From Bacteroidota bacterium (GTDB taxonomy: Bacteria; Bacteroidota; Ignavibacteria; UBA10030; UBA6906), in the NCBI GenBank assembly GCA_030835135.1, contig JAUQWO010000028.1:1-42951 (forward strand): a DNA stretch of 42,951 nt, given 5' to 3'. How positions within the stretch are numbered: the stretch's first letter is position 1; each line of letters starts with the position of its first letter. Shown one piece after another: positions 30,250 through 42,696 of the stretch. The notes below the pieces were generated by a model that was not told where the DNA came from, searched no databases, and saw only the letters and a program-made list of their open reading frames with translations. A program made the position numbers and the translations under genes.

Positions 30250-31872
30250 CTACTTGTAAAGGTCGGTCACGTCCTTGTTCTGCTTGCGGGAGATCACGTG
30301 GAACTCGCCGATGGGTATCGAGGAGTCCTCCTCCAGCTTGATCAGGACGAAATACTTCAGCATGATGCGACGCAGACGGCTGATGGTCCCTTCGCGGAGC
30401 GACGGCGCAAGCGACGGGTGGACCCGCAGGGTGAAGCGCGTCTCACGCGTCTCCGACTTGAACCGGTGGATCCACCGCTCGAGCTGATTCAGGGCCGTGG
30501 TCTTCGACGTCACCAGGCCGGTGCCGGCGCATGTGGGGCACGCTTCGGTGAAGCTGTGCAGGATGTTCTGGCGGATACGCTGGCGCGTGATCTGCACGAG
30601 CCCGAACTCGGTCATCGGCAGCACGGTCACCTTCGCCCGGTCCTTCCGGAATTCCTTCTTGAGCTCCTCGTAGACCTTCTTCTTGTTCTTCTCGTCATCG
30701 AGGTCGATGAAGTCGCACACGATGATGCCGCCCAGGTCGCGCAGGCGGAGTTGCCGCGTGATCTCCCGGGCCGCCTCGAGGTCGGTGCGGAGCGAATTGA
30801 TCTCCTGGTCCTTCTTCGGCGCATACCGCCCGCTGTTCACATCGATCACCACCATGGCCTCGGTGGGTTCGATGATGAGGTACCCGCCGCTCTTCATCCA
30901 GACCTTGCGCGCGAGCGTGGTCTCGATCTCTTTTTCGACCCCGTAGGCATCGAAGATCGGATTGCGCTCCTTGTGGAGCTCGATCTTCTCCAGGAGCTGC
31001 GGTGAGGTGTACTTGATGTACGACCGGATCTCTTTGTGCAGCTTCTTGGAATCGATGACCACGCGGGAGACATCGTTCGAGAAGAGATCGCGGATCACGC
31101 TGGACGTCGTCGCGAGATCCTTGTAGAGCAGACACGGGGCCTTCTCGGCCTTCACGGTCTTCTCGATCTCACGCCACGTCGCGATCAGGTCCTCGAGGTC
31201 GTTCTTGATCGACGAGTCTTCCTTCCCTTCGGCCACGGTGCGGATGATGGTGCCGAAACCCGGAGGGAGGATCGCCTGCACCGTACGGCGGAGGCGGCGT
31301 TTCTCTTTGAAGTTCGAGATCTTCTTGGAGATGCCGACCTTGTTGTCGAACGGCAGGAGGACAAGGAAACGTCCGGCCAGGGAGATGTCCGATGTGACGC
31401 GGACGCCTTTCTTCCCTACGGGTTCCTTGATGATCTGGACGATGACCTCCTGCCCCTTTTCGAGGTGGACTTCTTTGGGGGGAGGTTTGGGGGCTGGTGG
31501 GCGCTGGCGGTTGTGCTGACGCTCGTCGCCATTCCCGTTGCCGCGTGCATGCTGATCGTCGGAGGCGCTCCCGGCGGGTGCCGATGCGCCTTCCCCTTCA
31601 CCTTCTTCTTCCTCGTCCTCGATGAGTGTGTTGTACTCATCGAACCGGCTGCCGATGTCCGAGAAGTGAAGGAATCCGTCCTGGCCGAGTCCCAGGTCGA
31701 TGAATGCAGCTCTGATGCCGGGCATCACCTTGGCAACCTTGCCAAGATAGATGTCGCCGACCATTTTTTCCTTATTGGCAGTCTCTACAAAGAGTTCTGC
31801 CAGGCGACCATCCTCGGTGATTGCGATCCGGGTCTCGTTGGCCGCTGCGTTGATAATGATCTCTTTCTTCAT
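30250..31872 (-). CDS. rng: Ribonuclease E/G family endoribonuclease
   Basis: A 540-residue RNase G/E catalytic core, which processes rRNA and decays mRNA. An S1 domain opens the protein (GDIYLGKVAKVMPGIRAAFIDLG) but is interrupted at about residues 82-135 by a hydrophilic insert rich in Glu, Gly, Asn, Gln and Pro. The DNase I-like subdomain carries the metal-binding aspartates in MVVIDVNSGRY and IVCDFIDL, and the Zn-link CPTCAGTG follows. There is no C-terminal scaffold as in RNase E. ATG at 31872 (MKKEIIINAAANETR) is the conserved family start; the 18-codon upstream extension was rejected. Heads a seven-gene minus-strand run with gaps of 15 bases or less. Confidence 0.95.
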   Translation of the reverse strand: MKKEIIINAAANETRIAITEDGRLAELFVETANKEKMVGDIYLGKVAKVMPGIRAAFIDLGLGQDGFLHFSDIGSRFDEYNTLIEDEEEEGEGEGASAPAGSASDDQHARGNGNGDERQHNRQRPPAPKPPPKEVHLEKGQEVIVQIIKEPVGKKGVRVTSDISLAGRFLVLLPFDNKVGISKKISNFKEKRRLRRTVQAILPPGFGTIIRTVAEGKEDSSIKNDLEDLIATWREIEKTVKAEKAPCLLYKDLATTSSVIRDLFSNDVSRVVIDSKKLHKEIRSYIKYTSPQLLEKIELHKERNPIFDAYGVEKEIETTLARKVWMKSGGYLIIEPTEAMVVIDVNSGRYAPKKDQEINSLRTDLEAAREITRQLRLRDLGGIIVCDFIDLDDEKNKKKVYEELKKEFRKDRAKVTVLPMTEFGLVQITRQRIRQNILHSFTEACPTCAGTGLVTSKTTALNQLERWIHRFKSETRETRFTLRVHPSLAPSLREGTISRLRRIMLKYFVLIKLEEDSSIPIGEFHVISRKQNKDVTDLYK

Positions 31873-32102
31873 ACCGTACTGGGGGTTCCAGCCTTTCTTC
31901 CAGAGAGGTGAGCCGGGCAACACCACCGTTACGGAACGAAGAGAGCAGGCTCCCGAGCAGGATCGAGAGACACAATGTTAGGACTGCATACGCTCGCATC
32001 GTTTACCGACCTGTGGTGTCGAACACTGTTGTTTGGGATCGGTCCATGTTCATCCAGAAGAGGAAGCGGTCATCGCCTCACTCAGAACCTGAACTCGTCA
32101 GG

Positions 32103-32133
32103 ATAAACTACGAAAAACCATCATGTGGTGCAA
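32103..32133 (-). promoter_or_regulatory. Probable promoter of the rng operon
   Basis: Minus strand: TTG (32133-32131), 20-base spacer, TAGTTTAT (32110-32103). It lies just beyond the T-run that ends the SRP RNA gene and about 230 bases upstream of the rng start, giving a long leader. Confidence 0.45.
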
Positions 32134-32149
32134 CAGGGACCAATAAAAA

Positions 32150-32249
32150 GAGGCCAAGCTACCCTGCGTCACACCATGGGGTACTGACCGTTGCTTCCTT
32201 CCGGACCTGGCGGGGTTGGGTACCTTGCGGTTGCACAGGACTTGACCTC
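32150..32249 (-). ncRNA. ffs: Signal recognition particle RNA (small bacterial type)
   Basis: The conserved tip of SRP RNA is present on the minus strand: AGGTCCGGAAGGAAGCA (about 32213-32196), which binds Ffh. The outer ends close the long hairpin: GAGGTCAAG (32249-32241) pairs with CTTGGCCTC (32158-32150), and CCTGTG pairs with CGCAGG further in. A TTTTTATT run follows directly. The 100-nt size fits a bacterial 4.5S RNA. The 5' end lies two bases after the tRNA-Ala 3' end, so both are made from one transcript. Confidence 0.93.
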
Positions 32250-32251
32250 AG

Positions 32252-32324
32252 TGGAGCTGATCGGGGTCGAACCGACGACCTCCTCGTTGCGAACGAGGCG
32301 CTCTCCCAGCTGAGCTACAGCCCC
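32252..32324 (-). tRNA. tRNA-Ala (anticodon CGC)
   Basis: Full cloverleaf on the minus strand: acceptor GGGGCTG/CAGCTCC, D-arm GCTC/GAGC, anticodon stem CCTCG/CGAGG with loop TTCGCAA (anticodon CGC), T-arm GTCGG-TTCGACC-CCGAT, discriminator A at 32252. CCA is not encoded. The SRP RNA gene begins two bases downstream. Confidence 0.95.
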
Positions 32325-32400
32325 GAATGTCATACATGGCAAAAGGCAAAGAAAAATTGGTAAAAGCGCTACCGCGTCTCATCGACTCTTACAATGTGTA

Positions 32401-32432
32401 CGAATGTAGGAAATGGGATGGAAAAAAGCAAA
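32401..32432 (-). promoter_or_regulatory. Promoter of the tRNA-Ala/SRP RNA unit
   Basis: Minus strand: TTTG (32432-32429), 20-base spacer, TACATTCG (32408-32401). The tRNA begins about 75 bases downstream. The -33 element is one half of the palindrome CAAATGCATTTG shared with the divergent YdcF-family promoter. Confidence 0.6.
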
Positions 32433-32436
32433 TGCA

Positions 32437-32468
32437 TTTGGAGGAGTGTTCCACCTCTGTTATATTGA
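32437..32468 (+). promoter_or_regulatory. Promoter of the YdcF-family gene, leaderless start
   Basis: TTTG (32437-32440), 20-base spacer, TATATTGA (32461-32468), four bases, ATG at 32473. It forms a back-to-back pair with the tRNA-Ala promoter. Confidence 0.62.
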
Positions 32469-32472
32469 CAGC

Positions 32473-33156
32473 ATGTCCGCACCGCGCATATTCCCCGCCC
32501 TGTTCGTCCGCCGGTCCGTCCCGGTGCCAACGTGGCGCGGATGGTTGCTGATCGTCACGCTCACAGCTGCCGTCGTGTGCTCCCTGCCCGGCGCCCTCTT
32601 CTCCCTGCTGTCTGTCACCGACCCTGTCGGCGCCGGGACGCTTGTCATCGAGGGCTGGGTAGCGGACCAGGCGATCGAGGAAGGCGTTGCATTGTTTCGC
32701 ACGGGACGCTACGATCGGATCGTCACGACCGGCGTCCCGATCGAATACGGCGGATACCTGTCGTCGTATGGCAGCACCGCCAACGTTGCCCGCGCGACCT
32801 GCATGCGGCTCGGTATCGATAGCGCCGCGATCTCGGCTGCGCCTGCGCAGGGTCACATCGAGCGTGACCGGACATACGCGTCCGCGCGGGCGCTCCGGTC
32901 GTGGCTGCAGCGCCACGCACCGGATACCCGGCAGCTCGACATCCTCTCGCAGGGCGTCCACGCACGGCGCACACGGATGATCTTCGCGCGGGTGCTCGGT
33001 GATTCGATCCGGGTCGGCATCATTGCCGCCAGGGAGCTCCGCTACGATGGGAGCACCTGGTGGAAGACCAGCGCCGGCGTGAAGGATATCGGGGCCGAAG
33101 TGGTTGGCTCTCTCTACGCTGCATGGGGACGGGATCAGGCACCGCCCGAAGAATAG
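32473..33156 (+). CDS. YdcF/SanA/ElyC-like DUF218 membrane protein
   Basis: A 227-residue protein with one N-terminal membrane helix (about residues 20-45; WRGWLLIVTLTAAVVCSL) followed by a DUF218-type domain. Family-like features are AGTLVIEGWVADQAIEEGVALF, IVTTGVPIEYG and RDRTYASARALRSWL. Relatives include ElyC and SanA, which affect envelope integrity and peptidoglycan precursors; biochemical activity is poorly defined. The start is ATG at 32473 because the -7 box ends four bases before it; the ATG at 32413 lies upstream of the promoter. Confidence 0.75.
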   Translation: MSAPRIFPALFVRRSVPVPTWRGWLLIVTLTAAVVCSLPGALFSLLSVTDPVGAGTLVIEGWVADQAIEEGVALFRTGRYDRIVTTGVPIEYGGYLSSYGSTANVARATCMRLGIDSAAISAAPAQGHIERDRTYASARALRSWLQRHAPDTRQLDILSQGVHARRTRMIFARVLGDSIRVGIIAARELRYDGSTWWKTSAGVKDIGAEVVGSLYAAWGRDQAPPEE

Positions 33157-37020: not shown

Positions 37021-37110
37021 GGAGGGGTGGGTGAGTGGCCGAAACCAACGGTTTGCTAAACCGTCGTAGGGAGTAAATCTCTACCGAGAGTTCGAATCTC
37101 TCCCCCTCCG
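37021..37110 (+). tRNA. tRNA-Ser (anticodon GCT), integration target
   Basis: A 90-nt class II tRNA: acceptor GGAGGGG/CCCCTCC, anticodon stem ACGGT/ACCGT with loop TTGCTAA (anticodon GCT), long variable arm GTAGGGAG...CTCTAC, T-arm GAGAG-TTCGAAT-CTCTC, discriminator G. CCA is not encoded. Its 3' 67 bases plus the next base are repeated at 42574-42641, marking the tRNA as the attachment site of the downstream island. Confidence 0.96.
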
Positions 37111-37111
37111 C
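37044..37111 (+). repeat. Left attachment-site repeat (attL) inside tRNA-Ser
   Basis: A 68-base direct repeat of 42574-42641 with a single mismatch (A at 37075 against G at 42605). It covers the anticodon arm to the 3' end of the tRNA, the classic target of tyrosine integrases. Confidence 0.85.
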
Positions 37112-37112
37112 A

Positions 37113-37139
37113 CGAAGCCCCGCCTCTGGCGGGGCTTCG
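37113..37139 (+). terminator. Hairpin after tRNA-Ser, followed by an AT palindrome
   Basis: CGAAGCCCCGCC and GGCGGGGCTTCG form a perfect 12-bp stem with a TCT loop, three bases after the tRNA. It is followed by the palindrome AATTCAGATATCTGAATT (37140-37157). The same hairpin-plus-AT-palindrome layout recurs after the tRNA copy at 42641. Confidence 0.6.
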
Positions 37140-37285
37140 AATTCAGATATCTGAATTTGCCGTATCCCGCCTTGCGTCGATTCCCCGACTACAACACATT
37201 ATTTGACCGCTGCGTGGGCGATTTAGTGTGCGGTCATTTTGAGCACGCTCGCACCGTCCTGGCCCATTTTGAATGGACGGAATAT

Positions 37286-37888
37286 ATGTTCCTCTCCAAA
37301 CGCAGCGGAGTTTATCACCTCTTCTACGAGGACGAGACCGGCAAGCGTCGGTCGTGCAGCACGCACTCGCGCACGAAGCCCGAGGCCATGAAGTTCTTCC
37401 GGGAGTTCGACGCTGAGCGCGCGCGACAGTCCGCCCTCCTCAAGCCCATCTCGATTGAGGAGTTCACGAAGGAGTTCATCAGGTTCTCCGCAGGCATCCA
37501 CACGCCCAAGACCGTTGATGCGAATAGAACGGCTTTGAACGAGTTTGGACGGATCGTCGGCGCCGATCTGGCGACGCACACCATTTCCCAGCCGGACATA
37601 GAGCGGTTCCTTGCGACCAAGATCACTGAAGCATCGGCATGGACGGCGAGAAAGTATCATCTGGCATTGGGCGCCGCATACGAACGGGCACTTACCTGGG
37701 GCCACGTCACCGAAAATCTCTGGCGAAAAGTCAAAAAAAAAGGCCCCTGAGGTCCTGCCCGCCTACTTCACTCGGGAGCAGTTCCGGGCGCTTCTGGATG
37801 TGATCAAGGACCGGAACCTGCGGGAACTGGTCACAGTGGCCGCATTGACCGGTCTCCGGCGAGGAGAACTCCTGGCGATGCGAATATC
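37286..37888 (+). pseudogene. Tyrosine-recombinase integrase, frameshifted and truncated
   Basis: N-terminal part of a phage-type integrase starting at ATG 37286 (MFLSKRSGVYHLFYEDETG), with a SAM-like core-binding domain (SIEEFTKEFIRFSAGIHTPK, YERALTWGHVTENLW). A run of nine A residues (37733-37741) breaks the frame; with eight As it reads on as KVKKKAPEVLPAYFTREQF into the catalytic domain. The first catalytic Arg is in LTGLRRGELLAMR. About three codons later homology stops and sequence belonging to the oppositely oriented HamA-like gene begins; the rest of the catalytic domain, including the Tyr nucleophile, is missing. It cannot be active. Adjacent to attL, as expected for the element's own integrase. 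Confidence 0.85.
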
Positions 37889-38493
37889 TTCCCCTCAGAG
37901 TCACGACCCGCTTCATATAGTCGCTTCGCAATGAAAGCCAACGTTGACGGATTGGGCCTACCATTATGGTCGTCCAAAGCCCGAGCCGCACTCTTTACAG
38001 TAGCGTTGGACAAAAGCTGAGCGCTCTTTGATTCACCCTTGAGGACCTTGACTGTCCCGTTTTTCAACTGCAATATCGCAATGATGTGATTGCCATGCAT
38101 CGGCATCTTTCGATCGCTCTTCCACCGAAACTTGCGGATTGGAACTTTGAAGGGGGTTTGAGAGTCGACATACTCAGTTGCGATCAGCTCACCCAGGTCA
38201 CCCGACTGCGTTCTCTTCGAAATGGGCATGCTGTTTCTGATGGTATTTGCGGCCTTGGGGTAGCCACCCATCTTCATGATGGTGTCTTCTCCCACAAAGT
38301 GATCGCAAAGCAACTTCGAGAGTTCTTTCATCGCAGGTGCTCGACTCTTCGGTCGCTCCTCGTAGATAGGCACTCCGGCGGAAGTCGAAGAGATACGCCT
38401 TAACCAGCGGATAGACAACTTGCTTGGCAATCCTGGTGCAACTCCTTTCCCATTTGAAACCGCGAGCCCTTGGTTCGATACGGTCGTTACCAT
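37831..38493 (-). pseudogene. HamA-like (DUF1837) Hachiman defence protein, 3'-truncated
   Basis: A 220-codon frame resembling HamA, the nuclease effector of the Hachiman antiphage system. Family-like blocks are SKRTQSGDLGELIATEYV, VPIRKFRWKSDRKMPM, VLKGESKSAQLL and GRPNPSTLAFIAKRLYEAG. The E-x-K of a PD-(D/E)xK-like nuclease is kept at Glu154-Ser-Lys156, but HGNHIIAI (134-140) stands where relatives, as I recall them, have RGDD-type acids. From about residue 203 the frame runs through sequence that is antisense integrase, so the true C-terminus is lost. No HamB helicase gene is present. Identification is from recalled family patterns; the start is uncertain, and Met55 is an alternative. Confidence 0.6.
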
Positions 38494-38565
38494 CGGATGT
38501 CATATCGGAGGACTGGGGAACCGCGCCGCATGGATTTCAACTCTTCCTAGGAGGGGGATATGGCC

Positions 38566-38596
38566 TTGAAAATCTCAACTGAAAGTTGTAGATTAC
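38566..38596 (+). promoter_or_regulatory. Promoter of the small Fic-inhibitor-like gene
   Basis: TTG (38566-38568), 20-base spacer, TAGATTAC (38589-38596). It can also be read as a sigma70-like TTGAAA-N17-TAGATT. The ATG is seven bases beyond the box, so the mRNA would be nearly leaderless. Confidence 0.5.
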
Positions 38597-38603
38597 ATTC
38601 ACG

Positions 38604-38771
38604 ATGAAGACCGCCAAACCCTTGTCTAAGACCAACAAATTCCTTCGCGACCCGAAATTGCGTGACGTTCTGATCTTGCGTCATGCTGCGGCCTCGGCGG
38701 CGATAGAAGGCGTGAAACAAGCCAGTCCCCGCGCGGCACGAATTCAGAGAACCCTTCGCTCCTCACGTTAA
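38604..38771 (+). CDS. Small Fic-inhibitor (antitoxin)-like protein
   Basis: A 55-residue basic protein, too short for routine gene calling. It contains ILRHAAASAAIEGVKQ, in which SAAIEG fits the inhibitory motif (S/T)-x-x-x-E-(G/N) that blocks the ATP site of Fic enzymes in class I antitoxins such as VbhA. It has a good promoter and lies next to a fic gene, but points towards it: the two 3' ends overlap by nine bases (38763-38771). Known class I antitoxin genes usually lie upstream of fic in the same direction. The role is inferred from the motif and the neighbour. Confidence 0.6.
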   Translation: MKTAKPLSKTNKFLRDPKLRDVLILRHAAASAAIEGVKQASPRAARIQRTLRSSR

Positions 38772-39395
38772 TCGTTGCGCCAATCTCAATCCCCGTTTGA
38801 TGATGGCCTGCATTGGCCGGTAGTCCGCGTCCAAAGCCGCATGTATAGCGTGTGCGTACCCATCGAATTCCTTCCCACGGGATTTGATGAAACTGAAATC
38901 GATCCCAGGCATCCCAGCCTGATACGCCGAAAGAGTTGCCAATAGACGAGCAGTTCGTCCGTTCCCTCCTCGGTATGGATGTATGAGGAGGAATTCGGCA
39001 TGAACGGGTGCGATCTGAGCCGCAAGTGCATCCTCGTCGACTCTATTGCAGGGCGTAAGGACCCGCAACACCTCACGTTCGAAGTCCTTCATCGCTTGCG
39101 GAATGGCAAATGCAGACGCGAACGGGAATCCTCCTTTTGAGATATTCACTGTCCGGTACGATCCTGCCCATGCGTAGATACCTCCCAGAAACAACCGGTG
39201 AATCTCATCAACATCCGAAAGCGAGAATCTTTGGTCCGCACTTACGGTCTTGACCAGCGTGCCCTCGGCATTCATGTACGCCGCCAGTTCAGCTTCTTCC
39301 AGCTCTCGCACTTTGGTGATATGCTTGAGATTAATCAGAATCCTGCCGCGGGAGCCGGGTTCGCACTCGGACCGTGCATCGGTATGGTATTTCAT
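38763..39395 (-). CDS. Fic-domain protein with variant active-site motif
   Basis: A 210-residue Fic-family protein. Fic enzymes usually transfer AMP from ATP to target hydroxyls; many are toxins. The domain is complete: FLGGIYAWAGSYRTVNISKG, FPFASAFAIPQAMKDFE, then the Fic motif HPYRGGNGR at residues 139-147. The catalytic His, the Asn-Gly anion loop and the final Arg are present, but the fifth position, normally Asp or Glu that holds Mg2+, is Gly143. No inhibitory (S/T)xxxE(G/N) helix is found within the protein; a candidate is in the convergent small gene. ATG at 39395 (MKYHTDARSE) is chosen over 39488, which adds an unrelated segment. Island gene. Confidence 0.88.
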   Translation of the reverse strand: MKYHTDARSECEPGSRGRILINLKHITKVRELEEAELAAYMNAEGTLVKTVSADQRFSLSDVDEIHRLFLGGIYAWAGSYRTVNISKGGFPFASAFAIPQAMKDFEREVLRVLTPCNRVDEDALAAQIAPVHAEFLLIHPYRGGNGRTARLLATLSAYQAGMPGIDFSFIKSRGKEFDGYAHAIHAALDADYRPMQAIIKRGLRLAQRLT

Positions 39396-39814
39396 ACTTG
39401 GCTTCAAATCGTTTTCCGTCGATCGGATGTGCGGGTGGGTGTGCCCCCACCACACCATCTTTCGGTTGGGGAGGCCACATGAAAACATTCATTGCATCGG
39501 CAATGAAGAATCTTACAAAACGGCTCGACCAACATCAATGCGTTCGCGGACATACTTCGGTCCGCCCTTGACATCCCCAACCCTACGGCGCTACAATGAC
39601 CCCGGCGTTGAGCGCCGCCTCGCCTATGCGTATTCAGCGTCAACGGTCCCGGGTGCCACGGGTCCACGAAATCCCAGTTTCACAATTTTCGGGAAGTGCG
39701 GGCATGCGATTGAGTGTGCGGCAGGTCAGGAATTGACGCATTGTGAAGCGGAACGGTCATTCCCAACGGTTTGCCTAACCGTCACACGGTGAGAGACTCG
39801 CGCGCCCGCTGGCA
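39396..39814. other. 419-base stretch without a confident gene
   Basis: It contains a 30-codon ORF at 39479-39571 with a strong GGGGAGG four bases before its ATG, inside which TTCATTGC-ATCG-GCAATGAA (39489-39508) forms a perfect 8-bp hairpin. It could be the stub of a deleted gene. The rest holds the degenerate right-end repeat of the island (39655-39783). No other coding signal seen. Confidence 0.4.
39655..39783 (+). repeat. Internal copy of the island right end with degenerate tRNA core
   Basis: About 129 bases align by eye to 42461-42595 at roughly 80% identity, including GCGATTGAGTGTGCGG and TGTGAAGCGGAACGG. They end in a decayed copy of the tRNA-Ser anticodon arm (CCAACGGTTTGCCTAACCGTC). 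It marks the right boundary of a first element and the left boundary of a second. Confidence 0.65.
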
Positions 39815-41941
39815 CTATCGCAAGAAAAGGCACTTCCTCGTTTCGGAATATGATCCGGCCCGCAACCTGTAGAAGTACACTCCAGTCGGTAATTCACTTG
39901 CATCGAACTGCAGTTCGTGATTTCCAGCTTGCTCCTCTCCATTCTGGAGTATGACAACCTGTTGTCCCAGAGTGTTGTACACAGCGAGCGTGACGTGTGA
40001 TCTGTCTGACACCGCGTAGCGGATCGTAGTGGATGGGTTGAATGGATTGGGATAGTTCTGTTCCAGACCCATCACAGTGACATGTGGCGGATCAGGCCCA
40101 ATTGCGGTGGCGGACAGACCTCGAGTTCTGTATACACCAAGCGGTGTCGCAGCATACAAGAACCCATCGGACGAATAAACAAGGTCGTTGATCGTTGTTT
40201 TTGGAAGGCCATTGGACGCTGGAACAAACATGGAATCGCTCGGACGTATGAGTGCCACCACACCAGATGAGAGACCCAGTGCAACTTCTCCAGCTGAATC
40301 CACCGCAGCAGTCGCAATCTGTCCGCTCCCTCCGTATTGGTTGTACACGCTTCCCCACGAGTTTCCCATGTCACGTGTTCGATACATAGTATTGTTACTC
40401 GTGGATGCGTAAACCAGGTCTGCATCCGCTACGACTATCTTGAGAACAAACGGACTTGTCCACGACGGAGGATCTATCCGCTCCAGGTCCACTCCCTCGT
40501 TACTCGAACGGTAAGCACCGTTGGCTGTCCCGATGAACAACCAATCTGTCGATGGGAAAGCAATGCACCTCACATCCGCAATTCCAAGGGTAAAGGGTCG
40601 CCAGTATCGCCCTCCATCTGTCGAAGAAAAGAAGGTGCGACTTCCTGTTTCAGCAAAAAGGGTTCCATTCGAGCCACGGAAAAGATCTCGGATTTGTTTC
40701 AACTCCATCCCACTGTCACTGGATGCCCATGATTCACCTCCATCCGCAGACCGATACAACCCGTACGATTCCGAACCTACGAATATCCCTTCTGCCTCAA
40801 AATCCTTTATCGTCGTAATGTCGCTCGGCACCCCTTCCCCCAAAAGAGTCCATGATGCCCCGTGATTCGAAGAGGCAAACACCCCGCATCCGTCCGTGCC
40901 AGCGAGGATCCTTCCATCTGCCTGCGCCTCGAGAGCCGTCGGAGTTAGCCATGGCAAGCCGACACTGTTATGTTTCCAGGTTCTACCGCCGTCAATGGAC
41001 GTGTGAACTCCGGAGTCAGTGCCTGCGATCAGACTATCCGCTCCATTCGCCACAAGCGTCCAAACACGGGACTTGCCAAAGGAAGTGGTTATGTGCGACC
41101 ATTCCTGTCCCCCGTCTGTTGTTTTGAACAGCCCTCCATCGGTGACGAAAACGATCACAAACCCGGAAGCGTCCAGCCCCAAGGGGCGCGCGCTAACGTC
41201 GGTGAGGGTTGTTCCCATTGGCTTCCATGTCAGCGCCGTGTCAAGGGAACCCCACACACCGCAGGGTTGATAACTGCGAACATAGATTCCCCCAACATAG
41301 ATATTGCCCAACCGGTCCTCGACTATACTGGAAGGTGCGATGTCGGAACAAACCCGCGTCCAACTCACCCCGTCGTCGGTAGAGCGATATATCCCATCAG
41401 AGGCGCATGCCACGACGTATCCATTTCGGAGCACAGTGATACAGTGGACATGATTGCCATCATCGATCCAGTTGCTCACATGTGCCCATGTAAGTCCATC
41501 ATCCTCGGACCTGTACACACCTTTTGAAGTACCAGCAAACAGAAACCCATGTGGACTGACTCCAAGACCGTAAATCTGGGCCGATACATCCGTGGTCCCG
41601 ACGCGCTTCCAAACATACCCATTGTCGATCGAGCGCCAAATATCTTGCTGACCCGTTCCAGCGAGAAGAGTACCCTTTGAGGTGACGACGATGCACTCGA
41701 AGTTATACGGGGTGGGGGTTCCAGATCCACGCAATCCCCAGGTCGCCCCGCCGTTGGTTGAGCCATAGATCCCAGCGGTCCTGACAGTGACGAACATGTT
41801 CTTGCCGTCCTTTACACTGATCCCACTCACCTGCCCTCCGAACAACCCACCGCACCGGGTCCAGGGTATTGACTGCGCAGATAGAGTAGAAGTGACGGGA
41901 TCCACAAGGTACAGACCGACTACGAGCAGGAGAATTCTCAT
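39815..41941 (-). CDS. Secreted Asp-box beta-propeller protein with T9SS sorting domain
   Basis: A 708-residue exported protein with a signal peptide (RILLLVVGLYLVDPVTSTLS). About a dozen repeats carry BNR/Asp-box motifs (S-x-D-x-G-x-x-W), for example STNGGATW, SEDDGLTW, STDDGVSW, TTDGGQEW, SIDGGRTW, SADGGESW and STDGGRYW, as in sortilin-like and Ycf48-like propellers. A Por-type sorting domain begins with LEQNYPNPFNPSTTIRYAV near residue 620 and ends in RKCLFLR. It is likely anchored on the cell surface by the type IX system; ligand unknown. ATG 41941 is chosen over 42001 because it starts the signal peptide. The DNA appears less GC-rich than the flanking chromosome, as expected of island cargo. 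Confidence 0.85.
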   Translation of the reverse strand: MRILLLVVGLYLVDPVTSTLSAQSIPWTRCGGLFGGQVSGISVKDGKNMFVTVRTAGIYGSTNGGATWGLRGSGTPTPYNFECIVVTSKGTLLAGTGQQDIWRSIDNGYVWKRVGTTDVSAQIYGLGVSPHGFLFAGTSKGVYRSEDDGLTWAHVSNWIDDGNHVHCITVLRNGYVVACASDGIYRSTDDGVSWTRVCSDIAPSSIVEDRLGNIYVGGIYVRSYQPCGVWGSLDTALTWKPMGTTLTDVSARPLGLDASGFVIVFVTDGGLFKTTDGGQEWSHITTSFGKSRVWTLVANGADSLIAGTDSGVHTSIDGGRTWKHNSVGLPWLTPTALEAQADGRILAGTDGCGVFASSNHGASWTLLGEGVPSDITTIKDFEAEGIFVGSESYGLYRSADGGESWASSDSGMELKQIRDLFRGSNGTLFAETGSRTFFSSTDGGRYWRPFTLGIADVRCIAFPSTDWLFIGTANGAYRSSNEGVDLERIDPPSWTSPFVLKIVVADADLVYASTSNNTMYRTRDMGNSWGSVYNQYGGSGQIATAAVDSAGEVALGLSSGVVALIRPSDSMFVPASNGLPKTTINDLVYSSDGFLYAATPLGVYRTRGLSATAIGPDPPHVTVMGLEQNYPNPFNPSTTIRYAVSDRSHVTLAVYNTLGQQVVILQNGEEQAGNHELQFDASELPTGVYFYRLRAGSYSETRKCLFLR

Positions 41942-41947
41942 TTGTTC

Positions 41948-41978
41948 GTTCCATACTTTCAACGTTTGGTTCGCGCAA
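41948..41978 (-). promoter_or_regulatory. Possible promoter of the propeller gene
   Basis: Minus strand: TTG (41978-41976), 20-base spacer, TATGGAAC (41955-41948), six bases, ATG at 41941. Only the TA of the -7 box matches, but spacing and distance to the ATG follow the pattern of the other promoters. Confidence 0.3.
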
Positions 41979-42460
41979 TCCCCAAGCACACTGCATTGCA
42001 CGCGACTCGACAGTCAGCGCAGAAGTGTTCTGAGACCTCGTGCCTCACTTGGGGATTGTGATCTATGAAGATCCGGAGGCGAGCCACGAAAGGGAGTCCC
42101 ATCATGCAAATCCGACGAGACCCGAAAAGTCAATGAACACTTCGTGGTGACGCCACGGGTCAAAACACATCTTCAACCTCTTCAAGAATTCATCGAATGT
42201 GAGTGGATGCTCCGATGTGTCGCTCCAGGTGAGAGACCAAAACACAAAAGCCTCTCCCGCCCTAAAACGGAAGAGGCTGCAACACGTCTCCCCCCCGAAC
42301 GGTGAACATTAAAATACGGATCGTCTTAAGCAACGTCATGGCACACATCGTGGCAGCAAGTCTCTGCAACCTCTTGACATCCGCCACGCCACGATGTTAT
42401 ATTATCTGCGTCGCGCTCACGATCGTCGGCGATGTGGAAGCATGGTTAGCGAAGGCGAGC
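41979..42460. other. Gene-free stretch of the island
   Basis: No convincing coding frame. The only structure seen is a hairpin with AGCCTCT (42249-42255) pairing to AGAGGCT (42272-42278), which may also pair CCG with CGG inside. It could be a terminator for something deleted. A plus-strand ORF at 42302-42520 has no family resemblance and no ribosome-binding site. Confidence 0.35.
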
Positions 42461-42595
42461 GGCACGGGTTTGCGCGACACCCAACTTCACCATTTTCAGG
42501 CTGTGCGAGTGTGCGATTGAGTGTGCGGCGGGTCTGGATTTGACGCAATGTGAAGCGGAACGGAACGGGCATTACCAACGGTTTGCTAAACCGTC
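42461..42595 (+). repeat. Right-end repeat of the island
   Basis: Aligns with 39655-39783. It contains three TGTGCG units (42502, 42510 and 42522), the last inside GCGATTGAGTGTGCGG, then TGACGCAATGTGAAGCGGAA and the start of the tRNA-Ser copy. The pattern suits integrase arm-binding sites next to attR. Confidence 0.6.
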
Positions 42596-42641
42596 GTAGG
42601 GAGTGAATCTCTACCGAGAGTTCGAATCTCTCCCCCTCCGC
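42574..42641 (+). repeat. Partial tRNA-Ser copy (attR)
   Basis: 68 bases matching the anticodon arm to the 3' end of tRNA-Ser(GCT) at 37044-37111 with one mismatch. The acceptor 5' half and D-arm are absent, so this is not a functional tRNA but the right attachment-site repeat. Confidence 0.85.
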
Positions 42642-42642
42642 G

Positions 42643-42696
42643 CGATCCCGCTTCGCGGGATCGAATTAAGAACTAAGAATTCTGAATTCTTAATTC
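42643..42696 (+). terminator. Hairpin and AT palindrome after the tRNA copy
   Basis: CGATCCCGC-TTC-GCGGGATCG (42643-42663) is a 9-bp stem. It is followed by GAATTAAGAA and TTCTTAATTC (42663-42672 and 42687-42696) as a second inverted repeat. Same layout as after tRNA-Ser at 37113-37157, with different stem sequence. Confidence 0.55.

Follow-up and report, generated by a model that had tools for sequence, protein, structure and literature searches.

How does a bacterium make the 5' end of its SRP RNA when only two bases separate that RNA from the tRNA encoded before it? The question is raised by a stretch of 42,951 nt, hereafter the window, that spans positions 1 to 42,951 of contig JAUQWO010000028.1 (GCA_030835135.1) from a Bacteroidota bacterium of the lineage Ignavibacteria; UBA10030; UBA6906, whose genome (G000) comprises 4.9 Mb in 88 contigs. 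The features that bear on the question are the following.

32401..32431, minus strand: candidate promoter, TTG (32431-32429)-N20-TACATTCG (32408-32401), 76 nt upstream of the tRNA, identified by consensus match
32252..32324, minus strand: tRNA-Ala(CGC) (ARAGORN, 32324..32251; Rfam tRNA, 32324..32252, 64.3 bits)
32250..32251, minus strand: junction, C74 plus U, the sole bases separating the discriminator from the SRP helix (sequence and fold)
32150..32249, minus strand: small bacterial SRP RNA (4.5S type, gene ffs) with a GGAA tetraloop (RF00169 and fold)
32142..32149, minus strand: U-run that follows the SRP helix, probably an intrinsic terminator (strong stem, then UUUUUAUU)
30250..31926, minus strand: RNase E/G family gene (TIGR00757, 495.4 bits; PF10150), the downstream neighbor, outside the stable-RNA unit

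Read directly, the minus strand at the junction runs ...CAGCTCC-A(32252)-C(32251)-T(32250)-GAGGTCAAG(32249..32241), so that the two-base gap claimed in the original prediction, between the tRNA discriminator and the SRP helix, is exact (C32251 and T32250), with both genes on the minus strand. The tRNA has a cloverleaf and an alanine anticodon, as called by ARAGORN and Rfam, together with a G3:U70 pair in its sequence, which we take to be an alanine feature. Its discriminator is A32252, CCA is not encoded in the genome, and C32251 can be counted as tRNA position 74. The Bacteria_small_SRP model (RF00169) matches at 32247..32149 with 62.4 bits (gathering score, 40), covers model positions 1-97 of 97, and finds no second match in a covariance search of the whole genome. 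When folded, the 183-nt minus-strand RNA forms the cloverleaf and a single SRP hairpin, joined by three unpaired bases (A-C-U), a fold equalled by 3 of 200 shuffles; the helix of the hairpin ends at 32150, and UUUUUAUU comes next. Eleven of the 30 predicted pairs of the hairpin are changed on both sides in the 24 sequences used, out of 56. The hairpin and the U-run are probably the terminator of the tRNA-SRP unit, and are missing from the list of a terminator scan that was restricted to loops of 3-8.

We considered how this arrangement is kept among relatives. RF00169 searches gave 14 matches in 21 genomes of the family and 74 matches in 81 genomes of the order, with no match in seven of those 81. 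The 74 order matches and one further genome of the family, G013, make up a set of 75 loci, 73 of them with upstream sequence. In 53 of these 73 informative loci, and in four of six families, tRNA-Ala(CGC) lies upstream of the SRP gene on the same strand (f1, 13/13; f2, 24/26; f3, 12/19; f4, 0/10; f5, 4/4; f58, 0/1). It is the nearest tRNA in 52 of the linked loci, the remaining one, L062, having two intervening tRNA-Cys calls; at L050, which is counted beyond the 53, the tRNA-Ala is broken by Ns. The spacing, however, is not kept along with the order. Discriminator and helix are 2-3 nt apart in five of the 53 linked loci (the window, L013, L007, L060 and L039), 5-26 nt apart in four f3 loci, and at least 43 nt apart in the other 44. 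Thus, contact between the tRNA and the SRP RNA is not required. A comparison of ffs neighborhoods in relatives, which had been put forward as a check on the locus, therefore bears out a conserved gene order (53/73) and speaks against a conserved contact (5/53), and we rejected the idea that contact is conserved across the whole order. In an Ffh tree of 30 genomes, the contact pairs are scattered: they occur in the genus of the window, in a second f1 genus and in a single f5 genus; the branching within f1 is without resolution.

The longer spacers have a feature of their own. Eight linked spacers (L002, L011, L058, L062, L064, L078, L079 and L087) repeat the 3' end of tRNA-Ala (TCAGCTCCAC, with up to one mismatch), where 0.13 would be expected per shuffled set of linked spacers. 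Several of these copies stand behind a T-arm in which the loop has been swapped for a longer insert, L011 and L078 have triplets, and the copy in L087 is four bases away from the SRP helix. With three unlinked loci included, such copies are found in 11 of 65 upstream stretches, the one in L050 being the interrupted tRNA itself. There are hints here that some tRNA-SRP spacers grew out of the tRNA end.

Which cut, then, would give the SRP RNA its 5' end? According to the original prediction it is the tRNA 3' processing cut; in molecular terms, an RNase Z-type endonuclease would cut after the discriminator, and this cut would be the SRP 5' end, with C-U left on the SRP RNA. The geometry of the junction permits this, and CCA is not encoded. 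The tRNA ends of the genome argue otherwise: the base after the discriminator is C in 30 of the 30 ARAGORN tRNA calls that were read in G000 (a genome with 45 RF00005 matches), with a full CCA in two, so a cut directly behind the discriminator fits badly. A CCA-enzyme family gene is present (100.3 bits). The enzyme itself is also elusive, in that RNase Z (TIGR02651) exceeds its curated cut-off in none of 30 genomes, compared with 9 of 14 control genomes. Sub-threshold matches occur in 29 of the 30, the best with 146.3 bits in G013. The best candidate in G000 is a 298-aa metallo-beta-lactamase protein with 72.4 bits against a cut-off of 292.95; it has four weak structure matches, three of them to RNase Z (best, 37.2 bits over 75 residues). 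Because five of the 14 controls fall below the cut-off as well, these sub-threshold matches leave room for an unusual, divergent RNase Z. RNase PH was likewise undetected in G000, as it was in four of the 14 control genomes. The comparison of loci brings a further objection: where the gap is at least 43 nt, as in 44 of the 53 linked loci, a tRNA 3' cut alone cannot create the SRP 5' end. We therefore regard an RNase Z-type cut as an unlikely source of that end, and the part of the original prediction that relied on it is not supported as worded. Even so, tRNA 3' maturation may be unusual in G000 and its relatives, and since none of the genomes tested has an RNase Z that passes the cut-off, the junction offers a good starting point for asking how tRNA 3' ends arise in this order.

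Cleavage at the start of the SRP RNA is compatible with every linked locus, whatever its gap. More probably, then, the cut in dispute is the one that forms the SRP 5' end itself, and in G000 the same event would release the tRNA on its 3' side as well. RNase P is the candidate that we favor for it, and the chances that RNase P cuts between U32250 and G32249, creating the SRP 5' end and releasing the tRNA, seem to us evenly balanced. RNase P RNA is found in G000 with 235.6 bits. The first base of the SRP helix is G in 54 of 54 loci, a count that leaves out 19 f3 loci, where the helix starts differently, and two loci at contig edges. In the same set, T stands at position -1 in 38 loci (6 of 13 when the unlinked loci are taken by themselves), and because T is also common at -2 (30/54) and -3 (28/54), the signal at -1 is modest. 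A T precedes the 5' end of 15 of 29 tRNAs in G000. RCCA is known at the 3' side of the stem in tRNA precursors; the SRP stem has no RCCA on its 3' side, which reads CUUGGCCUCUUUUU, and this counts against RNase P. In the sections of a review that deal with these substrates, U is given as the base found most often at position -1 of tRNAs in many bacteria, its reading through base pairing is argued against, and pre-4.5S RNA is named as a natural substrate of RNase P (PMC11143913).

Another endonuclease could take the place of RNase P at the SRP 5' end, whether RNase E/G, RNase III or a further one, its cut being followed by trimming. We think it improbable that RNase P is uninvolved in this way. 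The Bacillus scRNA is matured by RNase III, an enzyme whose cut would here be expected within the helix, and a single-strand cutter would find little room, with just three unpaired bases at the junction. RNase E/G is described, in the portion of one article that concerns it, as an enzyme of tRNA 3'-end maturation (PMC5870498), and 60 of 75 loci have an RNase E/G gene behind the SRP gene (f1, 14/14; f2, 27/27; f3, 14/19; f4, 5/10). Such a neighbor does not imply a functional link. The gene follows the SRP gene also at loci that have no tRNA, and none is seen within 1.5 kb in f5 (0/4), which has contact pairs, or in f58 (0/1). For these reasons, we dropped a functional tie between the tRNA-SRP unit and the RNase E/G gene.

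A second tRNA elsewhere in the window has a different kind of surrounding. At 37021 lies a tRNA-Ser(GCT), and a 72-nt copy of its 3' part, 97% identical, is found at 42574-42645. Between the two lie what we take, from motifs, to be a phage-integrase-like N-terminus (37157-37750) and a Fic-like HPYRGGNGRTAR protein (38763-39488) on the minus strand. The stretch 37021-42645 is probably an integrated island.

The RNase P reading presupposes that the tRNA and the SRP RNA share a transcript, and we examined the promoters with this in view. That no promoter lies between the two genes was part of the original prediction, and it agrees with two consensus scans, a sigma-70 scan of 31500-33000 and a scan for the motif TTG-N19..21-TAnnTTTG, neither of which found a site there. 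We scored the latter motif across the loci of the order when it ended 3-30 nt before each RNA start; since it was fixed after these sequences had been viewed and relatives are not independent, sharing descent, the p-values given for it are a guide only. A score of at least 8 is reached by 12 of 20 unlinked SRP genes versus 3 of 52 linked SRP genes and 21 of 52 tRNA upstreams, and the difference between unlinked and linked SRP genes gives a Fisher value of 2.5e-6 for the order's loci, with kinship between relatives. All three linked genes with such scores are among the 44 with gaps of at least 40 nt; none of the eight with shorter gaps reaches it. The linked set omits L013, at a contig edge, and the unlinked 20 include L050, with Ns in its tRNA-Ala, as well as L067 and L098, which have tRNA 3' remnants; all three score below 8. 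Per-locus shuffles give p<=0.05 for 8 of 20 unlinked SRP genes, 1 of 52 linked SRP genes and 15 of 52 tRNA upstreams. The promoter motif is thus frequent at SRP genes that stand apart from the tRNA and rare at those behind it, and this distribution, together with the retained gene order, favors a single transcript.

The upstream side is less uniform. In 31 of 52 tRNA upstreams there is no strong promoter motif, and in the window's family the motif passes p<=0.05 upstream of the tRNA in 3 of 12. The window's own tRNA has no good match within 3-30 nt (score 6.0, p 0.81). The motif at 32401-32431 scores 8.5 of 9, the best in the 110 nt upstream, a value reached by 22 of 1000 shuffles. By eye, a GGAG..TTTG element recurs in f2 loci, among them L055, L059 and L088, roughly 10-40 nt before the SRP gene and in spacers that otherwise differ; it may be some other kind of promoter or processing signal.

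From these sequence comparisons, tRNA-Ala(CGC) and the SRP RNA are likely to lie on one transcript. In this respect the earlier reading is supported, as one unit without a separate SRP promoter (order kept in 53/73; motif at 3/52 linked SRP genes), while its tRNA 3' cut is not supported as worded. The core sRNAs of Alcanivorax, 4.5S RNA included, mainly have start sites of their own, as stated in a part of the report on them (PMC9788540). An SRP start site inside the tRNA gene, with adjacency reflecting compaction and no coupling, would account for the sporadic occurrence of contact (5 of the 53 linked loci), a pattern that spacers lost or gained by chance would produce, but we consider it very unlikely here, given that all eight loci with spacers below 30 nt, the window included, and 43 of 44 long-spacer loci lack a motif at p<=0.05 before the SRP gene, and that 12 of 20 unlinked loci score at least 8.

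The model that we propose is a two-gene stable-RNA unit with an RNase P cut at its junction, and we would give it, as a whole, about the same chance of being right as of being wrong. Transcription would start upstream of tRNA-Ala(CGC), possibly at 32401-32431, and RNA polymerase would read through the tRNA and then the SRP RNA, terminating in the U-run that follows the hairpin. RNase P would cleave the 5' end of the tRNA and then the bond between U32250 and G32249, which would yield the SRP RNA 5' end. Since the two RNAs are here no more than C-U apart, the second cut would leave a tRNA ending in ...A73-C74-U-3'; the trailing U would be trimmed, and the CCA enzyme would finish the tail. In other words, the SRP RNA would be made solely together with tRNA-Ala(CGC), and a coupled supply of the two would follow from their co-transcription.

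Such a unit would have consequences beyond the junction. SRP RNA serves membrane protein insertion, and to our knowledge the setting of its supply has been little studied outside a few model bacteria. If SRP RNA arises solely as the end portion of a tRNA transcript, the capacity for membrane targeting would track tRNA synthesis directly. One cut may separate two essential RNAs, in an arrangement that recurs in related and distant bacteria. A bolder extension is that, in an order whose tested genomes show no RNase Z above the cut-off, RNase P does both jobs at the junction and so locks SRP output to one tRNA, and that compact pairs are a widely recurring bacterial device in which a tRNA acts as promoter-proximal partner and processing signal; we hold this to be speculative and rather doubtful.

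Linkage of tRNA-Ala to the SRP gene is rare outside the order among the loci scanned for tRNAs, where tRNA-Ala(CGC) lies upstream at 1 of 29 (L103); L101, L105 and L107 lie outside this count. Tight tRNA-SRP spacing is found more widely. In a sample of the phylum, a tight pattern is present in 7 of 395 genomes, of which three belong to the window's order and the remaining four to three other families. In a scan for tRNAs that covered six of the seven loci, five have a tRNA-Ala (four CGC, one GGC); the sixth is near a contig end and has no tRNA. A pattern scan of named genomes, which demanded one T-arm spelling and whose counts are not frequencies, returned at least 115 loci. Among the 115 matches listed, ARAGORN calls a tRNA that covers the matched arm in 104 and none in 11. 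The tRNAs in those 104 listed loci are 92 Ser(GGA), 8 Ala(CGC), 2 Ser(CGA), 1 Gly and 1 Leu. The Ser(GGA) pairs, in the matches listed, come from records titled Spirochaetes, Myxococcota, Gammaproteobacteria, Aquificota and others; Nannocystis pusilla (L122, L131) and Hyalangium versicolor (L154) are among the titled species. In view of the matches in both the phylum sample and the named genomes, compact tRNA-SRP pairs are a recurring kind of arrangement and not a freak. Two of the Ser(GGA) pairs, L163 and L184, are in records titled as Klebsiella pneumoniae MAGs that are possibly misnamed; by eye, L163 resembles L111 (Candidatus Binatia) and L184 resembles L156 (Gammaproteobacteria).

A full-text literature search, with subscription literature mostly outside its scope, found no report of tRNA-Ala-SRP contact pairs or of the recurrence of compact tRNA-SRP pairs. 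Linkage of a tRNA to another stable RNA is, as a kind, already known, and several systems offer points of comparison. The E. coli 4.5S gene stands alone and has its own promoter. As with E. coli 4.5S RNA, the SRP helix here begins with G and RNase P is proposed to cut just before it; unlike in E. coli, the leader would be a whole tRNA plus a two-base spacer. Polycistronic tRNA transcripts in E. coli are reportedly processed by RNase P (Mohanty and Kushner, in 2007). The Pro-Ser tRNA dimer of T4 provides a further RNase P precedent, as covered in part of a review (PMC11143913). In both, RNase P releases the upstream RNA by cleaving where the following RNA begins, as our model would have it, except that the downstream RNA here is an SRP RNA and not a tRNA. 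The tRNA-Ser(GGA)-SRP pairs are closer in layout, with a tRNA directly upstream of the SRP helix, which begins 0-3 nt past the tRNA end in 44 of the 92 pairs among the matches listed (minimum-energy folds); they differ in their tRNA and in having CCA at its end in 42 of the 92 listed. Bacillus, in which a tRNA-Ser lies beside scr, and the archaeal Methanothermus, with its 7S RNA-tRNA-Ser linkage, resemble the window in joining a tRNA to an SRP RNA.
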